Source: Actinomyces procaprae
GTDB taxonomy: Bacteria; Actinomycetota; Actinomycetes; Actinomycetales; Actinomycetaceae
NCBI RefSeq assembly: GCF_004798665.1
Contig: NZ_CP039292.1
Coordinates: forward strand, 558,001-622,000
Reading direction: 5' to 3'
Length of the DNA: 64,000 nucleotides
Shown: in pieces, positions 2,653 through 62,975 of the stretch
How the letters are laid out: the number at the start of each line of letters is the position of its first letter
How positions within the stretch are numbered: the first letter of the stretch is position 1
Program-made: the position numbers and the translations under genes
Notes under the pieces: generated by a model
Databases searched by the model: none
What the model was told of the DNA's origin: nothing
What the model saw: only the letters and a program-made list of their open reading frames with translations

Positions 2653-2779
2653 ACCGACCTTGGCACGTAAGTTCTACCGACCTCGGTACGTAAGTTCTAC
2701 CGACCTCGGTACGTAAGATCTACCGACCTCGGTACGTAAGTTCTACCGACTTCGGTACGTAAGTTCTACCGACCTCGGC
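2653..2779. repeat. 23-bp tandem palindromic repeat, 5.5 copies
   Basis: Unit starts fall at 2653, 2676, 2699, 2722, 2745 and 2768. Each unit is the palindrome ACCGACCTCGGT (5-bp arms around CC) followed by ACGTAAGTTCT, with a few single-base changes. The same palindrome occurs as pairs at 26362 and 58064. In all three places it lies at the 3' end of a minus-strand gene. Here the minus-strand S9 hydrolase ends inside it: the TAG at 2768-2766 is made by two adjacent units. It may act as a transcript-end structure or a REP-type element. Confidence 0.9.
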
Positions 2780-5108
2780 GGGTGTGGCGGTGGGCGAAGG
2801 CGTGTACCAGGGCACTCACGAAGGCCCGCTGCGCGGGCGTGGCACCGCCACCGTGCCCGCCTGCGGCGCTCTCGAAGTATGTGACTGCCTGTCCCAGCTG
2901 CTCCAGGCGAAAGGCCATGGCGCGGGCATGCGCCGGATGCACGCGGTCGTCTGCGGCCGAGGTCACCAGCAGCACCGGCGGATACCGTCGCCCCGCCCGT
3001 AGAAGGTGCAGTGGCGAGTACTCCCGCATCCACGCCCACTGCTCCGGGTCATCCGGATCACCGAACTCCGCCGCCCACGCCGCCCCGGCCGACAGCTGGG
3101 TGTACCGGCGCAAGTCAGTCAGTGGCACCTCCAGTACGGCCGCCCCGATACGTTCGGGATGCCGGGTCAGTACCTCTCCCGCGAGCAGGCCCCCGGCCGA
3201 GGAGCCGTACAGGCAGATGTCCTCCGGGGCGGCGATCCCGCGCTCCACCAGCGCATCCAGCACCGCCACCAGGTCCTCAACCACCCGGTGTCGGCCCGCG
3301 GCGGTGCCCGCCAGGTGCCATCCCGGCCCGTACTCGCCGCCGCCGCGCGCGTTGACCACCACATAGGTGCCGCCCCGCTCCAACCACGCCTTCCCGGTGA
3401 CGGGCTCGTACCCCGGCGTGAGCGACTTCCCGAACGCCCCGTAGGCGTGCACCAGCACCGGCGCCGACGACGCCGTCGGCCGGCCGATCTGGAAGTAGGG
3501 CACCCGGGTGCCGTCCGCGCTGGTGGCCACATGTTGACTCACCCGTACGCCGCGCGCGTCGAACCGGGCGGGCGCCTGCCGCACCACCGTCATTCCGGTG
3601 AGCTCCCCCGACGCCGTCAACCGGGCGACGGCGAGCGTCGAGGGCGTGGTCCAACCGGACGCCGAGATCCACAGGTAGTCGGTGTCCGCCGGGCGCAACG
3701 GCGTGGCGGACACCGACAGCAGCGCCCGTCCCGGACGCAGTTCGGTGCCGTCGGTGGTGTGGGTCGTCGGCAGGTCGGCGGCGCCGGTCAGGTCGATCCA
3801 GTGGTGCCCCCAACCGCCCGCCGCTGCCCCCGTGCCGGAGACCCCGTCGCCACGCCCGGGCGGCGTGCACACCTCCAGGCGGTGGGCGACGTCGTCGAGC
3901 ACCGTGAGCACCAGGTGGCCCGCGGTCCAGGCGGCCGACAGCAGCGTGGATGAGGCGGAGGGCGCGAACAGGACCTCCGCCTTCCGGTGCCCGTCCAGGA
4001 AGCCCGCCAGGCCGGCGCCCAGCAGGGTGCCGGCCGGATGCGTGACACCGCCCGCCTCCCAGGGACTGCGCAGCTCGATGGTCAGCCAATCCCGGCCGAC
4101 GCCGGCAAGGCTGTCCTCCGGGACCTCAAGCCGGATCGCGTCCGCCGGGACGACATCGCCGTCAGCAGTGGTTACCGTGCCGACGCGCGCCCTTCCGTCC
4201 AGCGCGGCGCGGGCGGGCCCGGTGCCTGCCGGGCAGCCGGCCTCGTCGGGCAGCAGCCAGATGCGTGTTTGTTGGAAGCTGGGCATGGTGGTCAGCCAGG
4301 TCCGCCCCCACGGGTCGCGGGTGGCGAAGGCGGCGACGGCGTCGCCTCCCGCGGTCACCAGCACCTCCGCCTGGTCGGGTGCCTGCCCGCGCCGCAGGCG
4401 CCGCACCTGCCGGGGGTAGCCGGCCCGCGACACCGTCCCGGGCCCGAAGTCGGCGGAGACGATGACGGACTCGCCCGCGTCGTCACCCCAGGTCATCGTT
4501 CCCTTCGACGCCGGACGGTGGAAGCCCCCGTCGGCAGGTGCGATGAAGCGTCGTGCCTCCAGGTCGTACTCCAGGGTGAGGCTCGCGTCGCCGCCGCCCG
4601 GAGACAGCGTGACCAGGGCGCGGCGGCCGGCGCACGGGCCGGTGGTGAGCACCTGCGCCCCGCCCCACACCAAGTCGGCGTCGCCGGTGTACCCGATTTC
4701 TGGGGGCCGGGCACCGGGCGCATTCAGGGCGTCCAGGTCCAGTAGGACCTCCCACTGGGCGGGGGTTGGGGCGCGGTCGGCGCGGGAAGGGGCGCCGGCG
4801 GCATAGGAGTCCCAACTGGTGCGGCGCCAGAGGCCCCGGGGATGATCGGCGTCGGTCCAGAAGTTGTAGAGCATGCCGGCCCGGTCGGCGACGGCGGGAA
4901 TCCGGTCCGGGCAGTCCAGCACCGACTTCAGGTCGGCGGACAGGCCTACGAAGTCGGGGGAGGAGCTGTACTCCAGGCGGGTTTGCCGGTTATGGGCTTC
5001 CGCCCAGGCCGTCGCCCGCGTCCCGCCGGCCTCGTAGAGCCAGGCGGGGGCGACGCCGTCGCCGGGAGGAGAGTCGCTCGCGGCGCCGGCCGGGGCGAGG
5101 GTGCTCAC
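2766..5108 (-). CDS. Prolyl oligopeptidase family (S9) serine hydrolase, copy 1
   Basis: 780 residues, close to the usual size for a seven-bladed propeller plus alpha/beta-hydrolase peptidase of the oligopeptidase B / prolyl oligopeptidase group. The catalytic domain is C-terminal: nucleophile Ser in LYGSSAGG near residue 633, Asp in SAADDRVHP near 716, His in GGHGGG near 752. No signal peptide is seen, so it should be cytoplasmic and cleave short peptides or related esters. The start is a GTG with no good ribosome-binding site, 22 bp after the oxidoreductase stop, so it is probably co-transcribed or translationally coupled. It is paralogous to the gene at 6440-8959. The last residues (RRGR) and the stop codon come from the palindromic repeat. 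Confidence 0.88.
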   Translation of the reverse strand: MSTLAPAGAASDSPPGDGVAPAWLYEAGGTRATAWAEAHNRQTRLEYSSSPDFVGLSADLKSVLDCPDRIPAVADRAGMLYNFWTDADHPRGLWRRTSWDSYAAGAPSRADRAPTPAQWEVLLDLDALNAPGARPPEIGYTGDADLVWGGAQVLTTGPCAGRRALVTLSPGGGDASLTLEYDLEARRFIAPADGGFHRPASKGTMTWGDDAGESVIVSADFGPGTVSRAGYPRQVRRLRRGQAPDQAEVLVTAGGDAVAAFATRDPWGRTWLTTMPSFQQTRIWLLPDEAGCPAGTGPARAALDGRARVGTVTTADGDVVPADAIRLEVPEDSLAGVGRDWLTIELRSPWEAGGVTHPAGTLLGAGLAGFLDGHRKAEVLFAPSASSTLLSAAWTAGHLVLTVLDDVAHRLEVCTPPGRGDGVSGTGAAAGGWGHHWIDLTGAADLPTTHTTDGTELRPGRALLSVSATPLRPADTDYLWISASGWTTPSTLAVARLTASGELTGMTVVRQAPARFDARGVRVSQHVATSADGTRVPYFQIGRPTASSAPVLVHAYGAFGKSLTPGYEPVTGKAWLERGGTYVVVNARGGGEYGPGWHLAGTAAGRHRVVEDLVAVLDALVERGIAAPEDICLYGSSAGGLLAGEVLTRHPERIGAAVLEVPLTDLRRYTQLSAGAAWAAEFGDPDDPEQWAWMREYSPLHLLRAGRRYPPVLLVTSAADDRVHPAHARAMAFRLEQLGQAVTYFESAAGGHGGGATPAQRAFVSALVHAFAHRHTRRGR

Positions 5109-8959: not shown

Positions 8960-9446
8960 CCCGGGCGGACGCTAACCATCTCCCCGCGGGGTGTGGTGTT
9001 GGAATGCGCGGTGACCTCGGCGCACGGGCGGCGTGCCCGCCCGCGGCGGCTCTCCGTTGGCGCTCGTTCCCGTGCGTGGCGGCCCAAAGTGTCCAGGATC
9101 GGCACAAACGACGCCGACGTCGCCGACAGCGGTGGGCAGAACGTTGGAATCATGCGGTTTCAGAAACGGTCCCAGTGGTCATCGACGGCCTTTGTGCCGA
9201 ACTCGGACATTCTGCCCCGCGGCCAAGGCGCCCGGGCACACCACCCACCCACCAGCACCCAACCCACCCGGCCGGCAACACCCAGCACCGGCACACCCGA
9301 ACCGGAAGAGCCGGTTTACTGTCGAGGACGTCCTGCCGGGCAGCGCTCTGGAGGGCCGGGCCGCGTCGTCACGGGCTAACCCGCGTCTTCGAACTGAGAT
9401 GAGGCTCGTTTGCTTGTCAGGCGAGCGCGCGAGCGGGCACAATAGA
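8960..9446. other. Non-coding interval with a long imperfect inverted repeat
   Basis: No supported gene. The interval contains an imperfect inverted repeat: TGTCCAGGATCGGCACAAA near 9091-9109 pairs with the complement of TTTGTGCCGAACTCGGACA near 9191-9209 (16 of 19 positions), around a centre containing GTTTCAGAAAC. The arm length and style resemble the phased arrays elsewhere in the window. It lies upstream of the copy-2 S9 gene and downstream of the small-peptide terminator. Confidence 0.4.
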
Positions 9447-9492: not shown

Positions 9493-9636
9493 TCAGCCGA
9501 ACCACTTACTGAGGGCATCCACAAGGACACCAATGGCCCGGATCAGTTGAGCGAGTGATTCGAGTATTTCGCTCAGCTTCCGGGCCATTCCCTTGTCCTT
9601 GCGGACTTTGGCATGTCGGCCTTTCGGCTTGGACAC
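9493..9636 (-). CDS. Small cationic/amphipathic peptide, 47 aa, copy 1
   Basis: GTG start at 9636 with GGAGG seven bases upstream. The product has a basic N-terminal half (SKPKGRHAKVRKDK) and a C-terminal half that looks like a single amphipathic helix ending in an aromatic tail (LIRAIGVLVDALSKWFG). A paralogue of the same length is encoded at 54492-54635, with conserved ribosome-binding region, conserved residues (VRKDK/VRRDK, AIGVLVDAL/AVGVLADAL, KWFG/RWFN) and the same terminator. No signal peptide. I do not recognise a family; leaderless bacteriocin, phenol-soluble-modulin-like peptide or membrane-active toxin are possibilities by general character only. The frame continues upstream of the GTG and the upstream part is also similar between copies, so a longer product (81 aa) is not excluded. 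Confidence 0.6.
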   Translation of the reverse strand: MSKPKGRHAKVRKDKGMARKLSEILESLAQLIRAIGVLVDALSKWFG

Positions 9637-34622: not shown

Positions 34623-35010
34623 CTGAGTGCGACCCTGAGCGGGCGAGCACGTCCTGTTCATCCCGGATACGACCTCCTCACCCCGAATACGACCACGGCC
34701 GCCCGAGTACGACCTCCTCGTCCCGAATGCGACCCCGGGCGGGCGAACACGTCCTTTTCAGCCCTAAACCCTCCCGAATGTGGAGGGTATCGGGCGGATG
34801 AGGTCGTATTCGACCGGCGTGGGGTACTCGAATACGACCTCGTCGGACCGAAGACGTCCTCGCAAGCCTCAGAACGACCCCGCCCGACCGCCCGAGTACG
34901 ACCACGTGCGCTCGAGTACGACCTCGCCGCCCCGAGTACGACCTTGGGTGGGCGAACACGTCCTCGTCGGCCCGAGAACGTCCTGCGTGTCGTTCGGACA
35001 TGTTCGCCCA
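34623..35010. repeat. 20-bp-phased degenerate motif array (type CCGARTACGACC), copy 1
   Basis: About 15 units with consensus CCGARTACGACCTCSTCGSC, mostly 19-21 bp apart, fill the gap between the GH78 start and the DUF559-type gene. Most units point the same way. Near the middle (34761-34830), a hairpin-like core and one inverted unit (GAGGTCGTATTCG) interrupt the array. Units vary at many positions, so this is not a simple tandem repeat. A related array with the same unit and core lies at 55544-55833. The interval has no supported gene. Confidence 0.85.
34767..34795. other. Hairpin core of the phased array, copy 1
   Basis: CCCTCC (34769-34774) and GGAGGG (34782-34787) can pair around a 7-base loop. 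Alternatively CCCGA and TCGGG pair around the GGAGGG. The order CCCT-CCGAATG-GAGGG-TCGGGC is conserved in the array at 55.6 kb, where the sequence otherwise differs. Confidence 0.55.
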
Positions 35011-36060: not shown

Positions 36061-36176
36061 GCGACTGAATTGGAGGGTGTTCTTGCACGCAATAGTCGTT
36101 GGGGTGAACCCGTCCGATCTTGAGTTTTTGTTGGTACTATGCGGAATTGTCGGTTGGGTTGGAGTTGGGTGGTGCG

Positions 36177-36296
36177 GCTCCAGTGTGCAACGGGCGCCTC
36201 GTTGCACGCTGGAGGCGGCTCATGGCTGCTGGCGGTCTCAGTAGAACCGCGGAATCGTGCGGATTGTGGGATTGGGCTCCGAGGAGAAGTGTGCAA
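36177..36296. repeat. 120-bp perfect direct repeat with strong hairpin, copy 1 (candidate structured RNA)
   Basis: Identical over all 120 bases to 56247-56366 and in the same orientation. It begins with CTCCAGTGTGCAACG, loop GGCGCCT, CGTTGCACGCTGGAG: a 15-bp stem with one G-U pair, then a ~80-bp conserved tail ending GAAGTGTGCAA. About 100 bp upstream is partly conserved too (TTGCACGCAA, TTTGTTGGTA), so the full unit is about 220 bp. No coding logic is shared beyond incidental frames. The transcribed strand is not clear; neither has a U-run terminator directly after the repeat. Confidence 0.75.
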
Positions 36297-54491: not shown

Positions 54492-54635
54492 TCAGTTGAA
54501 CCACCTGCCGAGGGCGTCGGCAAGGACACCGACGGCCCGGACTAGACGAGCGACAGCACTGATCAGCTCGCTCGTCTGCCGGGCCGTTTCCTTGTCCCTG
54601 CGGACCTTGCGACGCTTGTCCTTCGACTTGGCCAC
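54492..54635 (-). CDS. Small cationic/amphipathic peptide, 47 aa, copy 2
   Basis: GTG start at 54635 with AAGGAGG seven bases upstream. Basic first half (AKSKDKRRKVRRDK) and amphipathic second half (VARLVRAVGVLADALGRWFN). Same length as copy 1 at 9.5 kb, with about half of the residues identical and conserved flanking hairpin and leader. The frame continues 26 codons upstream to an ATG, and this part is also similar in copy 1 (PPPGTLHVLAG / PSPGTPSVLAG), so a longer form is possible. Function unknown; its composition fits a membrane-active peptide. Confidence 0.62.
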   Translation of the reverse strand: MAKSKDKRRKVRRDKETARQTSELISAVARLVRAVGVLADALGRWFN

Positions 54636-55389: not shown

Positions 55390-55531
55390 CTAAAGCGGTC
55401 GGTAGGCGAAGCGCTCCACCGTCGCGGTGCCGCTGATGGCGCGCACGCCCACGACCCGGCCGGTGAAGCCGCCGGCCACCTCGGTGGACAGGTAGCGGCC
55501 GTCCAACCGCCCCAGCTCTACGTCTCGCCCG
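55390..55531 (-). pseudogene. Duplicated 3' end of the GH43 gene (remnant)
   Basis: About 140 bp almost identical to the last codons of the GH43 gene at 56405 (only about two mismatches over the best 110 bases), including the ending RFAY-PL and the stop codon (TAG, 55392-55390). Similarity stops at about 55531, just before the phased array. It is a recent partial duplication with no start. Confidence 0.88.
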
Positions 55532-55543
55532 TCCAGGCTCGCC

Positions 55544-55833
55544 CCGAGTGCGACCTACACGGGCCGAGTACGACCTGGTACGCCCGAAAACGTCCCGCAC
55601 GCGCCGAGTACGACCTCGTGTACCCCAATCCCTACCGAATGATGAGGGGTTCGGGCTTACGAGGACGTTCTCGGCCGATGGGCGATGGTCGAATACGTCC
55701 TCACCGACCCCACAACCCCCTTCTTGCGTCCGAGGACGACCCCGTCCATGGTCACCGACAACGTCCCCTTACACCCGAGGACGACCCCCACCCACCGAAT
55801 ACGACCTTCCATGCCCGAACACGACCCCTGGCA
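55544..55833. repeat. 20-bp-phased degenerate motif array (type CCGARTACGACC), copy 2
   Basis: The first four units (55544, 55564, 55584, 55604) are exactly 20 bp apart: CCGAGTGCGACCTACACGGG and similar. A central core follows (CCCTACCGAATG, GAGGGG, TTCGGGC, near 55629-55656) with an inverted unit (GAGGACGTTCTCGG), then six or seven further units to CCGAACACGACCCC. Unit and core match the array at 34.6-35.0 kb. Confidence 0.85.
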
Positions 55834-56246
55834 ACTCCGCGGCAGTCAGGCAGCCCGCCCCACAGCCACCTGCCGCAGTCGCGAGGCCAACCGAGGAGCG
55901 GCAAACAGTAGTGATGGCGCCGTTACGGATCATCCCGGAGCCGTGTACCACATACCGCGGCCTGTTAGTGCCAGGCGTACCGGATCACGCCCCACCCTTG
56001 ACTGGCCCCGACCTTTACCTGCCACTTCAACGAAAAACCCCGATCCAACACACATCCACGCCGACAACACTTTCCTTGTCCCTGCGGACCCTGGGCTGAT
56101 AATCCAGAACTGCAGGGTGTTCGCCGAGGAACCCCGAGCTCAGGTGGCGGGGTTGCACGCAACGACTGTTGGCATGACCCGGACTGACCCGTAGTATTTG
56201 TTGGTATTACGCGAAAAACGTGGTTGAGTTTGAAATGGATGATGAT
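55834..56246. other. Non-coding interval with partly conserved lead to the 120-bp repeat
   Basis: No supported gene. TTTCCTTGTCCCTGCGGACC at 56071-56090 is identical to 20 bases inside the 47-aa peptide gene (54587-54606) and may be a remnant of a third copy. From about 56151 the sequence resembles the region before the first 120-bp repeat (TTGCACGCAA, TTTGTTGGTA). Confidence 0.5.
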
Positions 56247-56366
56247 GCTCCAGTGTGCAACGGGCGCCTCGTTGCACGCTGGAGGCGGCTCATGGCTGCT
56301 GGCGGTCTCAGTAGAACCGCGGAATCGTGCGGATTGTGGGATTGGGCTCCGAGGAGAAGTGTGCAA
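56247..56366. repeat. 120-bp perfect direct repeat with strong hairpin, copy 2 (candidate structured RNA)
   Basis: Base-for-base identical to 36177-36296, with a 15-bp stem at its left end. It lies 38 bp beyond the 3' end of the GH43 gene. Perfect identity over 120 bp, with a diverged upstream part, suggests a conserved functional core or recent conversion. Confidence 0.75.
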
Positions 56367-56404: not shown

Positions 56405-57994
56405 CTACAGCGGCTGGTAGGCGAAGCGCTCCACCGTCGCGGTGCCGCTGATGGCGCGCACACCCACGACCCGACCGGTGAAGCCGCCGGCCACCTCGGT
56501 GGACAGGTAGCGGCCGTCCAACCGCCCCAACTCGACGCCGCGCCCGCCTCCTCCGCCCGGGCCAGCGGCATCCTCGCTGCGGGCCACGCCGAGCACTAGT
56601 TCGTCAGGAAGCTGCTGCCCGAAGAACCCCGACTCTGGCAGCTGCGCGCTCGCCCACAGACGCACCGTGGAGCCCTCCGGCACCTTTAACTCGCCCAACT
56701 GCTGCTCGAAGGGCGCCACGGTCGCGACGGCGATGACACGTTCCCCATCCCAGCGCACCGCGGCGCGGTGGTCGGGATCCAGGTACACGCACAGCTCGAC
56801 CACGGCACCCGGCCCACACTCCAACTTCACCTCGGCCCGCCAGCCGACGTCGCGGCACCGGGTCGCCAGCAGCGGACGCGGCGCGGCGTCGTCGGCGGGC
56901 GCGGTGATGGTGAGCCGACCGGCGTCGTCCCGGGCAAGGGCGGCGCGGGCGAGCCCACCGGGGGAGATCCACCGATCGGGCAGATCCCAGGGCGCGTCGC
57001 CGTCGGCCACCGGGCCCGGTCGCCCCCGCAGCACATCGGTGAAGGCACGACTGTCGGCGCCGTCGTGCGCGGCGATCGCCTCTGCATAGCGGTCCTCGAC
57101 GACGACCGGCCAGTCCCCCTCCCAGTCGACGCCGACCAGGAAGGTCTCCCGGCCATTGACGTGGTAGCCGGGGAAGGGCTCCAACTGGCGGATGCCCAGG
57201 TGCACCATGGCGAAGCGAACTCCGTCCCAGCCGGCGTCGTCGAGCGGGACGAGGTCGGCGTGCCCGGTGGCCTGCACCGGATGGTCGGTGGAGCGGTGGG
57301 TGAGGATCGGGTTGCCGGGGTGCTGCTCCCACGGGCCGGTCAGCTCGCGGGCGCGCGCCATGGTCACGCAGTGGCCGACGCCGGTGCCGCCCTCGGCCAG
57401 CAGCAGGTACCACCAGCCTCGGCGCCGGTACAGGTGCGGCCCTTCGGCGTCGCGCATGCCCGTGCCCTGCCAGAGATCCACCACTTCGCCCAGGCGTTTG
57501 CCGGTGTCCGGGTCGATCGGCACCGAGCGCAGCGTGGAGACCGCGGTGCCGGTCTCGAAGGACACCCCGCGCCAGCTCAGGTGGCAGATGCCCTCCTCGT
57601 CCCAGCACAGGTCTGGGTCGATGCCCGGGGTGTCGGGCACTTCCACCGGGTCGGACCAGCCGGCGGCCGGGTCGGTGGTGCGCACGATGCGTTGGCTCAG
57701 CGGGTCCTGACCCATATTGGTGACGATCACGTAGAAGGTGCCGTCGTGGTGGCGGATGGTGGGCGCGAAGGTGCCCTGGGAACCGGCGTCGCCGCCGGGC
57801 AGCGGCAGGGCGGTCGGACGCGTGTAGGCGTGGCCGACCTGCTCCCAGTGCACCAGGTCGGTGGAGCGGTGCACCGGCACGCCGGGCAGGTACTCGAAGC
57901 TGGAGTTGACCAGCCAGCACGTATCCCCGACGCGGCAGATGGATGGGTCCGGGTAGTAACCCGGCAGGATCGGGCGAGTGGAGCGGATGGGCAT
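56405..57994 (-). CDS. GH43 beta-xylosidase/arabinofuranosidase-like glycosidase
   Basis: 529 residues, AAGGAAAG before the ATG. The entry PILPGYYPDPSICRVGDTCW contains the general-base Asp of YPDPS. FAPTIRHHDGTFYVIVTN and IDPDLCWDEEG (pKa-modulating Asp) follow. GTGMRDAEGPHLYRR provides the acid Glu. A C-terminal beta-sandwich (about 330-529) is typical of two-domain GH43 xylosidases. Cytoplasmic. It lies 143 bp downstream of a GH78 gene on the same strand, so the two may work together on rhamnose/xylose-bearing glycans. Its 3' end is duplicated at 55390-55531. Confidence 0.92.
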   Translation of the reverse strand: MPIRSTRPILPGYYPDPSICRVGDTCWLVNSSFEYLPGVPVHRSTDLVHWEQVGHAYTRPTALPLPGGDAGSQGTFAPTIRHHDGTFYVIVTNMGQDPLSQRIVRTTDPAAGWSDPVEVPDTPGIDPDLCWDEEGICHLSWRGVSFETGTAVSTLRSVPIDPDTGKRLGEVVDLWQGTGMRDAEGPHLYRRRGWWYLLLAEGGTGVGHCVTMARARELTGPWEQHPGNPILTHRSTDHPVQATGHADLVPLDDAGWDGVRFAMVHLGIRQLEPFPGYHVNGRETFLVGVDWEGDWPVVVEDRYAEAIAAHDGADSRAFTDVLRGRPGPVADGDAPWDLPDRWISPGGLARAALARDDAGRLTITAPADDAAPRPLLATRCRDVGWRAEVKLECGPGAVVELCVYLDPDHRAAVRWDGERVIAVATVAPFEQQLGELKVPEGSTVRLWASAQLPESGFFGQQLPDELVLGVARSEDAAGPGGGGGRGVELGRLDGRYLSTEVAGGFTGRVVGVRAISGTATVERFAYQPL

Positions 57995-61100: not shown

Positions 61101-61155
61101 AGCCCGAGCTCCCGGTAGCGGCGGTGTTGGGCAGGCCGGGGTGGTGTGTGGTCAC
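58138..61155 (-). CDS. GH78 alpha-L-rhamnosidase (copy C)
   Basis: About 1005 residues from GTG 61155 with GGAGG five bases upstream; an ATG 11 codons earlier is possible. Domains as in the other GH78 genes: LTAGGIYEVFIDGVKVGADE, LGNGWYRGHLTW, VVDLGQNLTGHLHL, PTDCPQRDERLGWTGD near residues 504-520, TTIWERWDSMLPNGDI near 780-795. The C-terminal extension RTVRDLMDDDAAWARV is shared with copy B. No signal peptide. Followed by GH43 on the same strand. A phased array lies upstream. Confidence 0.93.
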   Translation of the reverse strand: MTTHHPGLPNTAATGSSGSDAPLTATPGAPNTSLLTAAAPDAADPVGPLAAPERLRVDHHRPDKPVLGGTGPTPALSWEVPSAPVGWTQARAEVEVVRGPVGALPAAPQTFTLEGANSLFVPWPAPPLSSREGAAWRVRVAGEDGTWSPWSAPAVVETGLLEHDDWPARPITAPGNRRADPAPVMVRRLTVPAGTTAARLHLTAGGIYEVFIDGVKVGADELAPGWTEYSRRVLVQTHDVTTALTPGEHELAVVLGNGWYRGHLTWAMREAVYGKDLWLLAQVELSDGQDTTVIGTDEAWTWRPSNVTANDLYNGQSTDLRLPALGEAEAESPVATLDLPQAALEPTTLPLPTVIGEVRPAEVITTPSGRRVVDLGQNLTGHLHLTVPGGRAGDVVTLRHAEVLEHGELGTRPLRNAECTDRVTLAGTGTADRPEVFTPTLTQHGFRYVEVDGFPGDDDALLASVTARVVSAGMERAAWFTSSQPLVDRLVENTRWSTIDNFITVPTDCPQRDERLGWTGDIGAFAPTSLSLYDAAAFLNSWTKDLAAAQTPDGALPVVSPDVLEGNKLTCAWGDAITLVPWAVYEATGNPAVLAASVEAMSCFVDGVDAVAGASHLWRGGFQFGDWLDPDAPPEEPAAAKADPDVVATAYFARSAGITARAWAILGDAERAAHYEALAASVREAYLDAYVTADGLILSDCATVYAQALAWDLLDTPRRVTGAGQRLADLVRLRSFRISTGFVGTPLVPAALVRGGQAATAARLVLERECPSWLYPVTMGATTIWERWDSMLPNGDINPGEMTSFNHYALGAVTQWLITDLAGLDVVGAGGRALRVAPQVGHGFTSASVVRRLPLGTARVAWELDGEALHVRVQVPVGSSAELVLPGAAPETLGHGVHERTVSLPAQLRDGGRTIRTVRDLMDDDAAWARVVEAVAGKHGAYMADPASTLTGFLTHELGSTVKVIPGAATMYGFIPGMEAVKEALDAVIAEVAPEAAEVPAAQRG

Positions 61156-61282
61156 GAGTTCCTCCGGATCTTCGTTGAACCGTTTCATGGATGGGTGTGA
61201 GCGTATTCGGTCCGCGGTGGATCCGTCAACCTTTGCGGTCTCTTCGCGTTTGAGGGTGTGTTGGCCCGGGGGCTTGTGTGCT

Positions 61283-61485
61283 GACGCGACGGTTCGTACC
61301 TTCGCGTGAGGGTTCGTATGTTCTGGTCGGCGATTCGTACTTTCTTGCGACGGTTCGTACGGTAGGGGTACGTAGCGTCGCCGGAAGTGCCGAATCGTTG
61401 GCGCAAAGTGTCGAACCGTCAGGCGAAGTGCCGAACCGTCACGCGAAGTGCCGAACCGTCACGCGAAGTGCCGAACCGTCATCCG
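61283..61485. repeat. 20-bp-phased array, inverted halves (unit AAGTGCCGAACCGTCACGCG)
   Basis: The right half has five units at 61385, 61406, 61426, 61446 and 61466; two are identical. The left half has four units of the reverse complement type (CGCGTGAGGGTTCGTATGTT and similar) ending at 61302, 61322, 61342 and 61362. They meet around GGGGTACGTAGCG. It is the clearest example of the 20-bp phase, 130 bp upstream of the GH78 start. Confidence 0.88.
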
Positions 61486-61839
61486 GTGCGCGCGGGCGAA
61501 CACGCCTGGTCCGCACCCCGAGCGCTCATGTCTGCGCCCGGGGCCTGTCGAGTGGGGCACCAAGACCGCTGCCGTGCGTCGTCAATGGCGGCAGTCCCGG
61601 TCCAGCACCCAGATACTCCCAACGGCCCCGACGACTCAGCGCAAGCCAGCACCACCCACCGACAACGACGACGACCTCGCCAACCCGACAACGACCACCC
61701 CCACCGCAGCCCCGACCCCAACCACCACACCCACAAACCGGAAGATCCCCTTTGCGCAGCTGCGGTCGGGATGGACCGCGAGGACGGCGCGGCGAAGCGC
61801 GTGGGGCGAGTCCAGCTCGCTCCACGCGCTTCGGGCCGG
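61486..61839. other. Non-coding interval, Pro/Thr-type low-complexity DNA
   Basis: No supported gene. 61640-61740 is rich in CCACC/CAACC, giving meaningless Pro/Thr frames. Nothing else is recognised. Confidence 0.5.
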
Positions 61840-62643
61840 CTAGTGCTCCGCCGTGGAGCCCTCGGCCTTGGAGGGGTCGGCGGCGTCGGCGGGATCTGCG
61901 GGGCCGCCGCAGATGAGGCGCGCAACGGCGACTCCCCACTGCGCGTCCGGGTTCGTGCCGGCACCGAGCCAGCTCGAGAACACCTTGACCACCAGGTCGC
62001 GCCGCTCCGGGGCGCGCTCGGCGTCGGCGCGCCCGAGCGCTGCGGGGAGCGAGTCGAGCGTCAGGTCCGTGCCGTATGCGGGCGTTCCGGGCTGCTGGCG
62101 CCACGACTCGGCCAAGGAGCCCGCGTCGAAGGCGTCGAAGCCCGTCTCCTCGACCAGTGCCATGGCCCGCTGCTTGTCGATGCTCCGGTCTGCGGCCACG
62201 GGCAGGGCGATGCGTCCGGGGGTTCCCGCGGGGGTGCCCTTGGTGGCCAGTGACGCCGAGCCGATGGCGTTCCACGCCTTGGCGACGGGGCGACCCAGCT
62301 GCTCGGACACCCACAGGCTTTCGACCATGCCGGCGGGCAGTAGGTCTGTGCCGTCGCGGCCCGGGTAGTAGTTCGAGGTGTCGATGACGGTCGCGTCCTC
62401 GGGGAGGTCGGTCAGGAGCGGTGCCAGTGTGGGGATCGCGCTCAGCGGCACCGAGAGGATGACCACCTCGGCGCCTTCGACCGCCTGCGCGGGCGTGACG
62501 GGACGGGCGCCGTCAACGAGCAGCTCGGCCGGGATGGTCTGCGGGCCGCGGGAGTTGGCGACGGCGACGTCGTGCCCGGCGGCGCTCAATGCGCGCACGA
62601 TGCTGGCGCCGATATTGCCGGTTCCGATAATGCCGATCCGCAT
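61840..62643 (-). CDS. F420-dependent NADP oxidoreductase-like NAD(P)-binding protein
   Basis: 267 residues from ATG 62643 (GAGGA upstream). N-terminal MRIGIIGTGNIGASIVRAL is a Rossmann dinucleotide fold. VANSRGPQTI fits the position that prefers NADP. VIDTSNYYPGRDG and AKAWNAIGS are typical of the NADP oxidoreductase (F420-dependent type) family. Many members do not use F420, so the cofactor is open. It lies between two phased arrays, on the same strand as the TetR gene but 385 bp from it. Possibly a TetR target. Confidence 0.88.
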   Translation of the reverse strand: MRIGIIGTGNIGASIVRALSAAGHDVAVANSRGPQTIPAELLVDGARPVTPAQAVEGAEVVILSVPLSAIPTLAPLLTDLPEDATVIDTSNYYPGRDGTDLLPAGMVESLWVSEQLGRPVAKAWNAIGSASLATKGTPAGTPGRIALPVAADRSIDKQRAMALVEETGFDAFDAGSLAESWRQQPGTPAYGTDLTLDSLPAALGRADAERAPERRDLVVKVFSSWLGAGTNPDAQWGVAVARLICGGPADPADAADPSKAEGSTAEH

Positions 62644-62840: not shown

Positions 62841-62975
62841 TACTGCACGACCCCGGGCGGCGTTTTACGACCTTGGTGCCTGTTGCACGACCCCGGGGTG
62901 GTCGTGGAATGTACCCCAAGGTCGTGAAGTGTCACCAAGGTCGTGGAATGCACTCCAGGATCGTGGTGGAGACCG
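62841..62975. repeat. 20-bp-phased array, inverted halves (unit TGTTGCACGACCCCGGGGTG)
   Basis: Three units start at 62841, 62861 and 62881 (core GCACGACCCCGG or TTACGACCTTGG). Three to four units of inverted type follow from 62901, 62921, 62940 and 62960 (GTCGTGGAATGYACYCCARG). Periods are 20, 20, 20, 20, 19 and 20 bp. It lies between the TetR stop and the oxidoreductase start. The rest of 62644-63027 shows nothing. Confidence 0.85.

Follow-up and report, generated by a model that had tools for sequence, protein, structure and literature searches.

What is the array of short repeats at 61.3 kb of the window, that is, of the whole 64,000-nucleotide stretch analysed here, and does it belong to a wider class of intergenic element? 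The source DNA is a genome in one contig of 3,600,355 bases, the window being G000:C1:558001-622000. An earlier note on this stretch had read positions 61283-61485 as a 20-bp array with inverted halves, and this was borne out, TRF giving period 20 at 61285-61360 and at 61384-61481. The nine units then claimed became ten cores in a phase-aware scan with the 9-bp core of family B, with up to 2 mismatches per core: four on the left and six on the right (starts at 61371, 61391, 61412, 61432, 61452 and 61472), the halves being inverted and the steps being 20, 21 and 20 bp, then 22 bp across the dyad, then 20, 21, 20, 20 and 20 bp. The cores of the array occupy a fixed, dyad-symmetric frame; the array is borne by a transposon and is one of a class. 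The features are collected in Table 1.

Table 1. Positions of the features in the window
Feature	Position	Strand	Basis or remark
Family J array, direct repeat of 23 bp reaching over the 3' end of gene 2766-5108 (minus strand)	2653..2778	+	
Dispersed ~150-bp repeat, not a 20-bp array	9087..9237		partial copies in L045, L064
Family A array, direct repeats CGARNACGACC-N9 at 20 bp, one inverted unit	34644..34983		
Family A array, diverged	55540..55826		BLAST and core chains
Target-site duplication, left copy (CCTTTGCG)	61230..61237		identical to 61749-61756
ISL3-type MITE, 511 bp, array inside	61238..61748		TIRs, TSD, empty site, copies
Left terminal inverted repeat	61238..61260	+	1 mismatch to GGCTCTTCNNGTTTGNGGGTGTG
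Family B array, left half, 4 cores (GACGGTTCG sense): 61288, 61308, 61329, 61349	61288..61357	-	phase-aware scan
Dyad centre of the family B array (TACGGTAGGGGTA)	61358..61370		
Family B array, right half, 6 cores (CGAACCGTC sense)	61371..61480	+	phase-aware scan
Right terminal inverted repeat	61726..61748	-	1 mismatch to GGCTCTTCNNGTTTGNGGGTGTG
Target-site duplication, right copy (CCTTTGCG)	61749..61756		
Family C dyad array, 3 + 3 cores CACGACC / GGTCGTG, 14 bp over the dyad	62846..62945		

The array does not stand free: terminal inverted repeats (TIRs), a target-site duplication (TSD) and an empty site place it inside a mobile element, a non-autonomous ISL3-type transposon (MITE) of 511 bp whose interior it forms and which was inserted just upstream of an alpha-L-rhamnosidase gene. 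ISL3-family elements have a TIR of GGCTCTTCCGG type and an 8-bp TSD. The window element resembles ISL3 insertion sequences and MITEs in its TIR of this type, in its TSD, which is a perfect 8 bp with CCTTTGCG on both flanks, and in the presence of PF01610 transposase loci in the genome, one of them with a long open frame; it differs in carrying a phased array and in having no transposase, with no Pfam match at E 0.01 in the 5 ORFs that overlap it. In the genomes G159 and G149 (loci L288 and L289), the site upstream of the orthologous rhamnosidase is empty, with neither the element nor a second TSD copy, and the two MITE flanks overlap there by 8 bp. Furthermore, BLAST of the intergenic region against the sampled stretches of the genome yielded 4 more near full-length copies of ~500 bp (82-90%), which share both ends (start 61237-61240, stop 61748-61751).

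The type 1 TIR (GGCTCTTCCGGTTTGNGGGTGTG, two positions relaxed) is found 99 times in 864 kb at up to 4 mismatches, compared with once in shuffled sequence, and an 8-bp TSD with at most 1 mismatch accompanies 16 of the 43 type 1 TIR pairs in the sample compared with 0.4% of mixed pairs. This TIR is found in 12 of 49 genomes of the genus, in some with a single match. The window MITE shares its TIRs with a TIR-bounded 1.45-kb ISL3 copy in L055, itself without a matching TSD. The transposase match falls in two pieces in the ISL3 copies at L055 5325-6774 and G000:C1:2799357-2799993. A promoter-like pair, TTGACG...TACGCT, was seen by eye directly 3' of the MITE and is kept in relatives; a strict promoter scan found no promoter.

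The periodicity was compared with chance on 304 intergenic segments (179 kb) taken from the window and from 40 stretches, each of 20 kb, of its genome, a segment being counted when a 60-bp stretch had at least 36 matches at a given lag. At lags 20, 19 and 23, 36, 16 and 17 segments were counted, for block-shuffled means of 0.1, 0.1 and 0.3 respectively, and none of 566 coding segments at any of these lags; intergenic DNA displays peaks at 19, 20 and 23 plus multiples, where coding DNA has none. Part of the 40 stretches had been picked for matches to one family. In the 18 picked regardless of matches, lags 20, 19 and 23 gave 4, 6 and 6 of 123 intergenic segments and 0 of 237 coding ones, with lag 24 nearly as high (5 intergenic, 5 coding). 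In related genomes, where the lack of any excess was to count against the reading of the earlier note, some samples do lack it: G038 (120 kb) and G160 (40 kb) have no segment at lag 19 or 20. Coding matches at these two lags in relatives were 0 save for 1 of 39 in G211, where the stretches contain N runs, and for 1 of 68 in the g22/g13/g3 sample.

A dyad finder blind to sequence, with periods of 12-34 allowed, returned periods of 18-20 only, with 0 arrays in coding DNA and 0 in shuffles. It found 12 arrays in 864 kb of the own genome, 2 of them within the 360 kb picked regardless of matches. From other genomes, 80 kb of G159 yielded one array, 40 kb of G155 two and 120 kb of G174 five, a simple 18-bp repeat being among these five. 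None was returned from G169 (120 kb), G160 (40 kb), G038 (120 kb), other genera (86 kb) or G154 (140 kb), where the finder misses two arrays visible by lag. With cores and spacing kept, these results support an intergenic array class that keeps its geometry while its sequence changes, and the wider claim of such a class holds in part. A strict 20-bp phase as its defining feature was too strong, because the families differ (19, 20, 20/21 and 22/23 bp), and these family-wise periods also rule out period 20 as a universal constant. Genes were called with a simple codon-usage caller, which misses genes, so that intergenic lengths and contexts are approximate.

Four other regions of the window had been said to follow the same plan. 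The one at 62.8 kb does so, with cores in the order +++--- at steps of 20, 20, 14, 20 and 19 bp, and it stands free, 82 bp downstream of the 3' end of a TetR gene. Those at 34.6 and 55.5 kb have the 20-bp spacing but consist mostly of direct repeats with a single inverted unit, and at 2.3 kb two weak units can be seen by eye, the clear array being the one of family J, with period 23 and one orientation. The weaker 20-bp candidate at 9.1 kb is a dispersed repeat, whose two partial copies match at 69-70%. No TIRs were found when sought around the C array at 62.8 kb and the A arrays at 34.6 and 55.5 kb. By eye, the first of these A arrays has a hairpin in its middle. Across the second, 55390-55531 repeats 56405-56546 (142 bp, 94%), the 3' end of the GH43 gene 56405-57994, from which it is separated by the array, as would result from insertion or duplication of the array-bearing stretch beside that gene.

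Each family has a core and a period of its own: CGARNACGACC-N9 at 20 bp in A, CGAACCGTC at 20/21 bp in B, CACGACC at 20 bp, some 19, in C, a AACGCCACTTCG-type core at 20 bp in D, GTTGGACC-N11 at 19 bp, some 20, in E/F, and CCGACCTCGG at 22-23 bp in J. Family B keeps one frame, with steps of 20, 21, 20, then 22 over the dyad, then 20, 21, 20, extra outer units adding mostly 20 bp; with a finder that accepted intervals of 19-22 and 39-42 bp, 26 of the 27 dyad-crossing intervals were 22 bp and one was 21. The B dyad arrays come from the own genome, G159, G169, G171, G172 and G149, the two chains of G176 being one-way only, and the pattern is present in 7 of 49 genomes of the genus (reversed control 0).

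In E/F, all 50 arrays with at least 4 cores run all-plus then all-minus with exactly 29 bp over the dyad, in a finder that allowed gaps up to 45 bp; this number counts one array twice (L095, L107) and includes two near-identical copies (L057), and 35 of the 50 come from loci fetched by three cores at 19 bp, a search that did not demand the 29-bp centre. Centre and spacer sequences differ among species. Among 18 further distinct E-type chains from several genomes, 11 extend over a dyad, all at 29 bp, and 7 are short and one-way, some of them likely chance. In family C, 9 arrays have 14 bp over the dyad; they were picked from the 32 chains listed, the remainder being chance or other families.

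In terms of spread, exact GTTGGACC pairs at 19 bp number 185 in the own genome. Among genomes representing 84,980 species, one each, the three-core E/F pattern occurs in 33 stretches, all from Actinomyces (A. glycerinitolerans, ruminicola, succiniciruminis, dentalis and ruminis). With 1 mismatch, it is found in 16 of 49 genomes of the genus, some with single matches, and the reversed control matches in 6 genomes; an exact-match count of 2 in 151 genomes of the family was too narrow because it allowed no mismatch and included only 12 members of the genus. Family K hairpins, searched with a 21-base centre at up to 3 mismatches, number 84 in G155 and 69 in G174 (reversed control 0), with one match each to the centre pattern in 2 other of the 49 genomes. 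G155 shares array sequence with an A. dentalis record, and further dyad arrays, again different in sequence, are present in G154, G174, G175 and G155.

Beyond single families, AAGTG-N-CG is common to the units of B, D and K. At 20-bp spacing it occurs in 13 of 200 genomes of the family, 6 with a single match, while the reversed control occurs in three, two once each and G114 nine times compared with 2 forward. Two members of another genus, G211 and G114, have 20-bp arrays as judged by lag. With three units and 1 mismatch, the motif was found in 3 of 297 genomes of the order, namely the own genome, G415 of another family (11 matches, unit AAGTGCCGACCTCGGGCGCG) and G220 (2 matches), and the reversed control gave 3 matches in all in 2 other genomes. 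The AAGTGCCGACCTCGGGCGCG-type 20-bp arrays of G415, some with one inverted unit, are at L269, L272, L280, L282 and L286, and the array loci inspected in that genome, 5 of 5 distinct ones, lie downstream of a gene end (rough gene calls). A viral origin was considered and dropped, viral contigs having no three-core E/F array. Three viral contigs (L264, L265, L266) have AAGTGNCG three times at 20 bp; by eye these are direct arrays, possibly iteron-like.

We read the 61.3-kb array as the interior of a MITE whose dyad-symmetric core sites form a putative protein docking platform captured by such elements, a reading whose chances we put at about half. A sequence-specific DNA-binding protein would bind the cores and assemble outward from the dyad on both sides; such platforms would also occur free-standing and would have been captured by MITEs with different ends. 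Their least unlikely use would be to fold the DNA locally into a nucleoprotein structure, or to insulate the element from what surrounds it. Given that 19 bp (E/F) and 22-23 bp (J) are not whole helical turns, no one model of in-phase wrapping suits every family. More tentatively, and with doubt about the whole of it, the arrays could constitute a new class of site array: dyad-symmetric, with ~20-bp units in a family-specific frame without indels, read by a conserved actinobacterial protein whose specificity would shift between lineages, and either free-standing or spread by unrelated MITEs.

The conservation of cores and spacers bears on this reading and on a rival one, in which the array is a passive minisatellite: a short inverted repeat trapped in MITEs would expand and contract by slippage on either side of its centre, and symmetry and spacing would be inherited without function. 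Unit number indeed varies among copies and among apparently orthologous arrays, as in L130 and L131, with 2+3 units vs 4+4 between flanks at 98%. There is also a precedent in BrickBuilt of Porphyromonas gingivalis, a MITE with trapped, spacer-free direct 23-nt repeats, a leader and a tail (PMC4596501). As the accessible text describes it, BrickBuilt is, like the present elements, a MITE whose interior contains a tandem repeat of some two dozen bases, and its many copies all lie between genes, but here the halves are inverted round a dyad, the cores are separated by spacers, and the units fall into several families, the TIRs into more than one. A minisatellite MITE of exactly that type was rejected for the 61.3-kb element, which has inverted halves and variable spacers where BrickBuilt has a spacer-free direct repeat.

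Against slippage alone, cores change less than spacers. In 11 E/F arrays found by their centre alone, the comparison took the first unit outward from it on either side; changes were seen at 3 of 176 core positions vs 27 of 242 spacer positions (p 1.6e-4), a test that favours cores somewhat because the step of 19 or 20 was picked by the better core fit. The C array at 62.8 kb, located via rhamnosidase orthologues, is syntenic in G159, G149 and G176, with no match in the loci of G169, G171, G172 and G180, and its 111 bp align without an indel in 4 species. The own array and that of G176 differ at 1 of 42 core positions and at 11 of the 69 others (p 0.029); the differences from G159 (1 of 42 and 3 of 69, p 1.0) and from G149 (0 of 42 and 4 of 69, p 0.30) are not significant. 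BLAST of the intergenic regions of the own genome and G176 aligned the array, at 89% over 133 bp, along with a single piece of 41 bp; the DNA flanking the array hardly aligns, and the TetR gene matches at 86%. In L290 of G176, the syntenic array precedes the rhamnosidase promoter region, and in the window it adjoins an oxidoreductase gene, for which no match was found in L290.

Cores and spacing are therefore more conserved than the DNA between cores, both in the genome and between species, and for this reason the site array with co-varying specificity, one of the earlier suggestions, fits. A passive minisatellite is possible but rather unlikely in our view, considering also that the frame is kept between species despite unrelated spacers and centres, that an array stays in place in 4 species without indels, and that 19-20-bp spacing recurs in many unit families. 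Some results weigh on the docking platform as well: the fixed frame may come in part from common descent of recently moved copies, the core differences of the C array rest on few substitutions, and not every E-type chain is a dyad, 7 of 18 being one-way.

The carriers of the arrays speak to another alternative, that the cores are transposase-binding or regulatory sites of the MITEs themselves. Type 1 TIRs lie on both sides within 700 bp of 11 of 15 A and 9 of 15 B arrays, as such sites would suggest, but of 0 of 9 C and 0 of 22 J arrays, and of 3 of 50 E/F arrays. At least 26 of these 50 have instead a quite different type 2 TIR, on both sides in 12 and on one side in at least 14, while 12 have no TIR at all. 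Moreover, the ISL3 copy in L055 has no B core at up to 1 mismatch, and we consider this alternative very improbable. The type 2 ends read CTAGGTC...GACCTAG, and the elements that bear them look like candidate IS630-type MITEs with a TA target. In G155 and G174, a third flank sequence was seen by eye beside some of the K and E arrays. Given the varied TIR types and the arrays without any, the array module has different carriers, or none findable.

Inverted halves could also form hairpins, in RNA or in extruded DNA, and the arrays might work in that form, for instance by terminating transcription in two directions or by serving as targets of RNase III. Compared with dinucleotide shuffles, folding on the two strands is strong for families B (z -4.7/-4.6), C (-5.7/-7.6), E/F (-9.8/-11.2) and K (-9.6/-8.4), and weak for A34 (-2.1/-2.6) and J (-1.4/-1.5). 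Strong folding on two strands follows from the arrays being inverted. As for pairing of variable columns over the dyad, in family B it was 0.421 vs 0.450 when permuted (z -1.9; 21 arrays, one frame), that is, without covariation of the spacers, and in E/F z was 4.4 for all 47 arrays and 0.0 for the 6 with other centres. Family K has mostly perfect 22-bp inner stems with some two-sided changes, as the hairpin model would predict along with the E/F excess, which counts against the docking platform. However, mismatches at stem positions 1-22 of 27 K copies (5 G-T, 8 A-C, 18 other) show no G-U bias. The pattern that found these copies fixes the loop and the innermost stem, so that their loop is uninformative on conservation; three K hairpins found without the loop pattern have a common loop, TGCTAGAGG, in favour of hairpins. 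In contrast, the perfect 26-bp stem of the C array in G176 is interrupted in the other three orthologues. To us, the folding and covariation data indicate that sites and frame are conserved, and not pairing.

No intrinsic terminator (GC-rich hairpin and T run) was found in 61150-61840, and Rfam gave 0 matches above the gathering score in the whole window, so that an RNA family reading was dropped. The nearest gene end was a 3' end for 9 of 13 A, 6 of 11 B and 4 of 8 C arrays, compared with a fraction of 0.53 under random placement; families A, B and C thus have no preference for gene 3' ends, which led us to reject a terminator reading for these three, weakens the earlier idea of a transcription barrier and, together with the above, makes the hairpin explanation improbable to us. 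For E/F, the proportion was 10 of 12 (p 0.03, weak). Family J stands apart, with 20 of 22 arrays nearest a 3' end and likewise 20 of 22 within 100 bp of one (p 7e-16). This 22-23-bp direct repeat, with 21 further arrays in L031-L068 besides the one in the window, lies against gene 3' ends or runs into them, for the most part in a single orientation relative to the gene, and looks like a separate kind of tandem element at gene ends. One family J array, in L066, has an ISL3-type MITE next to it.

In plasmid iterons and partition sites, one protein binds sites set in tandem about 20-22 bp apart. The present arrays differ from them in having dozens of chromosomal copies, inverted halves and several sequence families, and no replication or partition protein was found among the 20 window proteins put to Pfam. 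In comparison with REP/BIME elements (palindromic unit, conserved tetranucleotide, RAYT gene), the array units are not palindromic by eye. We know of no dyad-symmetric 20-bp site array in BOX, RUP or SPRITE. As far as the accessible text goes, these pneumococcal elements are alike in being small, mobile and intergenic, and they cluster and nest (PMC10969869). SIRC of Arabidopsis is alike in its short repeats, varied spacers and proposed MITE-interior origin and differs in being eukaryotic; dyad geometry is not mentioned in the accessible part of that paper (PMC10342631). A MITE with a trapped tandem repeat is known from BrickBuilt, within what its available text covers (PMC4596501), and no description of the mirror-image design was found in the open-licence PubMed Central literature searched.

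If a protein reads the arrays, annotation has missed a large network of sites, with more than 100 core pairs in one family alone, and the variety of unit families would show how DNA-binding specificity changes. If none does, the arrays are an unusually regular class of minisatellite, whose fixed spacing needs a mutational explanation. Either way, the MITEs here carry structured cargo.

Other repeats were seen in the window. A 214-bp repeat at 85% identity is found at 36083-36296 and 56153-56366. Two related small ORFs on the minus strand, 9493-9636 and 54492-54635, each encode 47 residues of basic character from a GTG start within repeats of ~280 bp, of which a third DNA copy lies at L064 12929-13205; they are possibly an unannotated family of small peptides.
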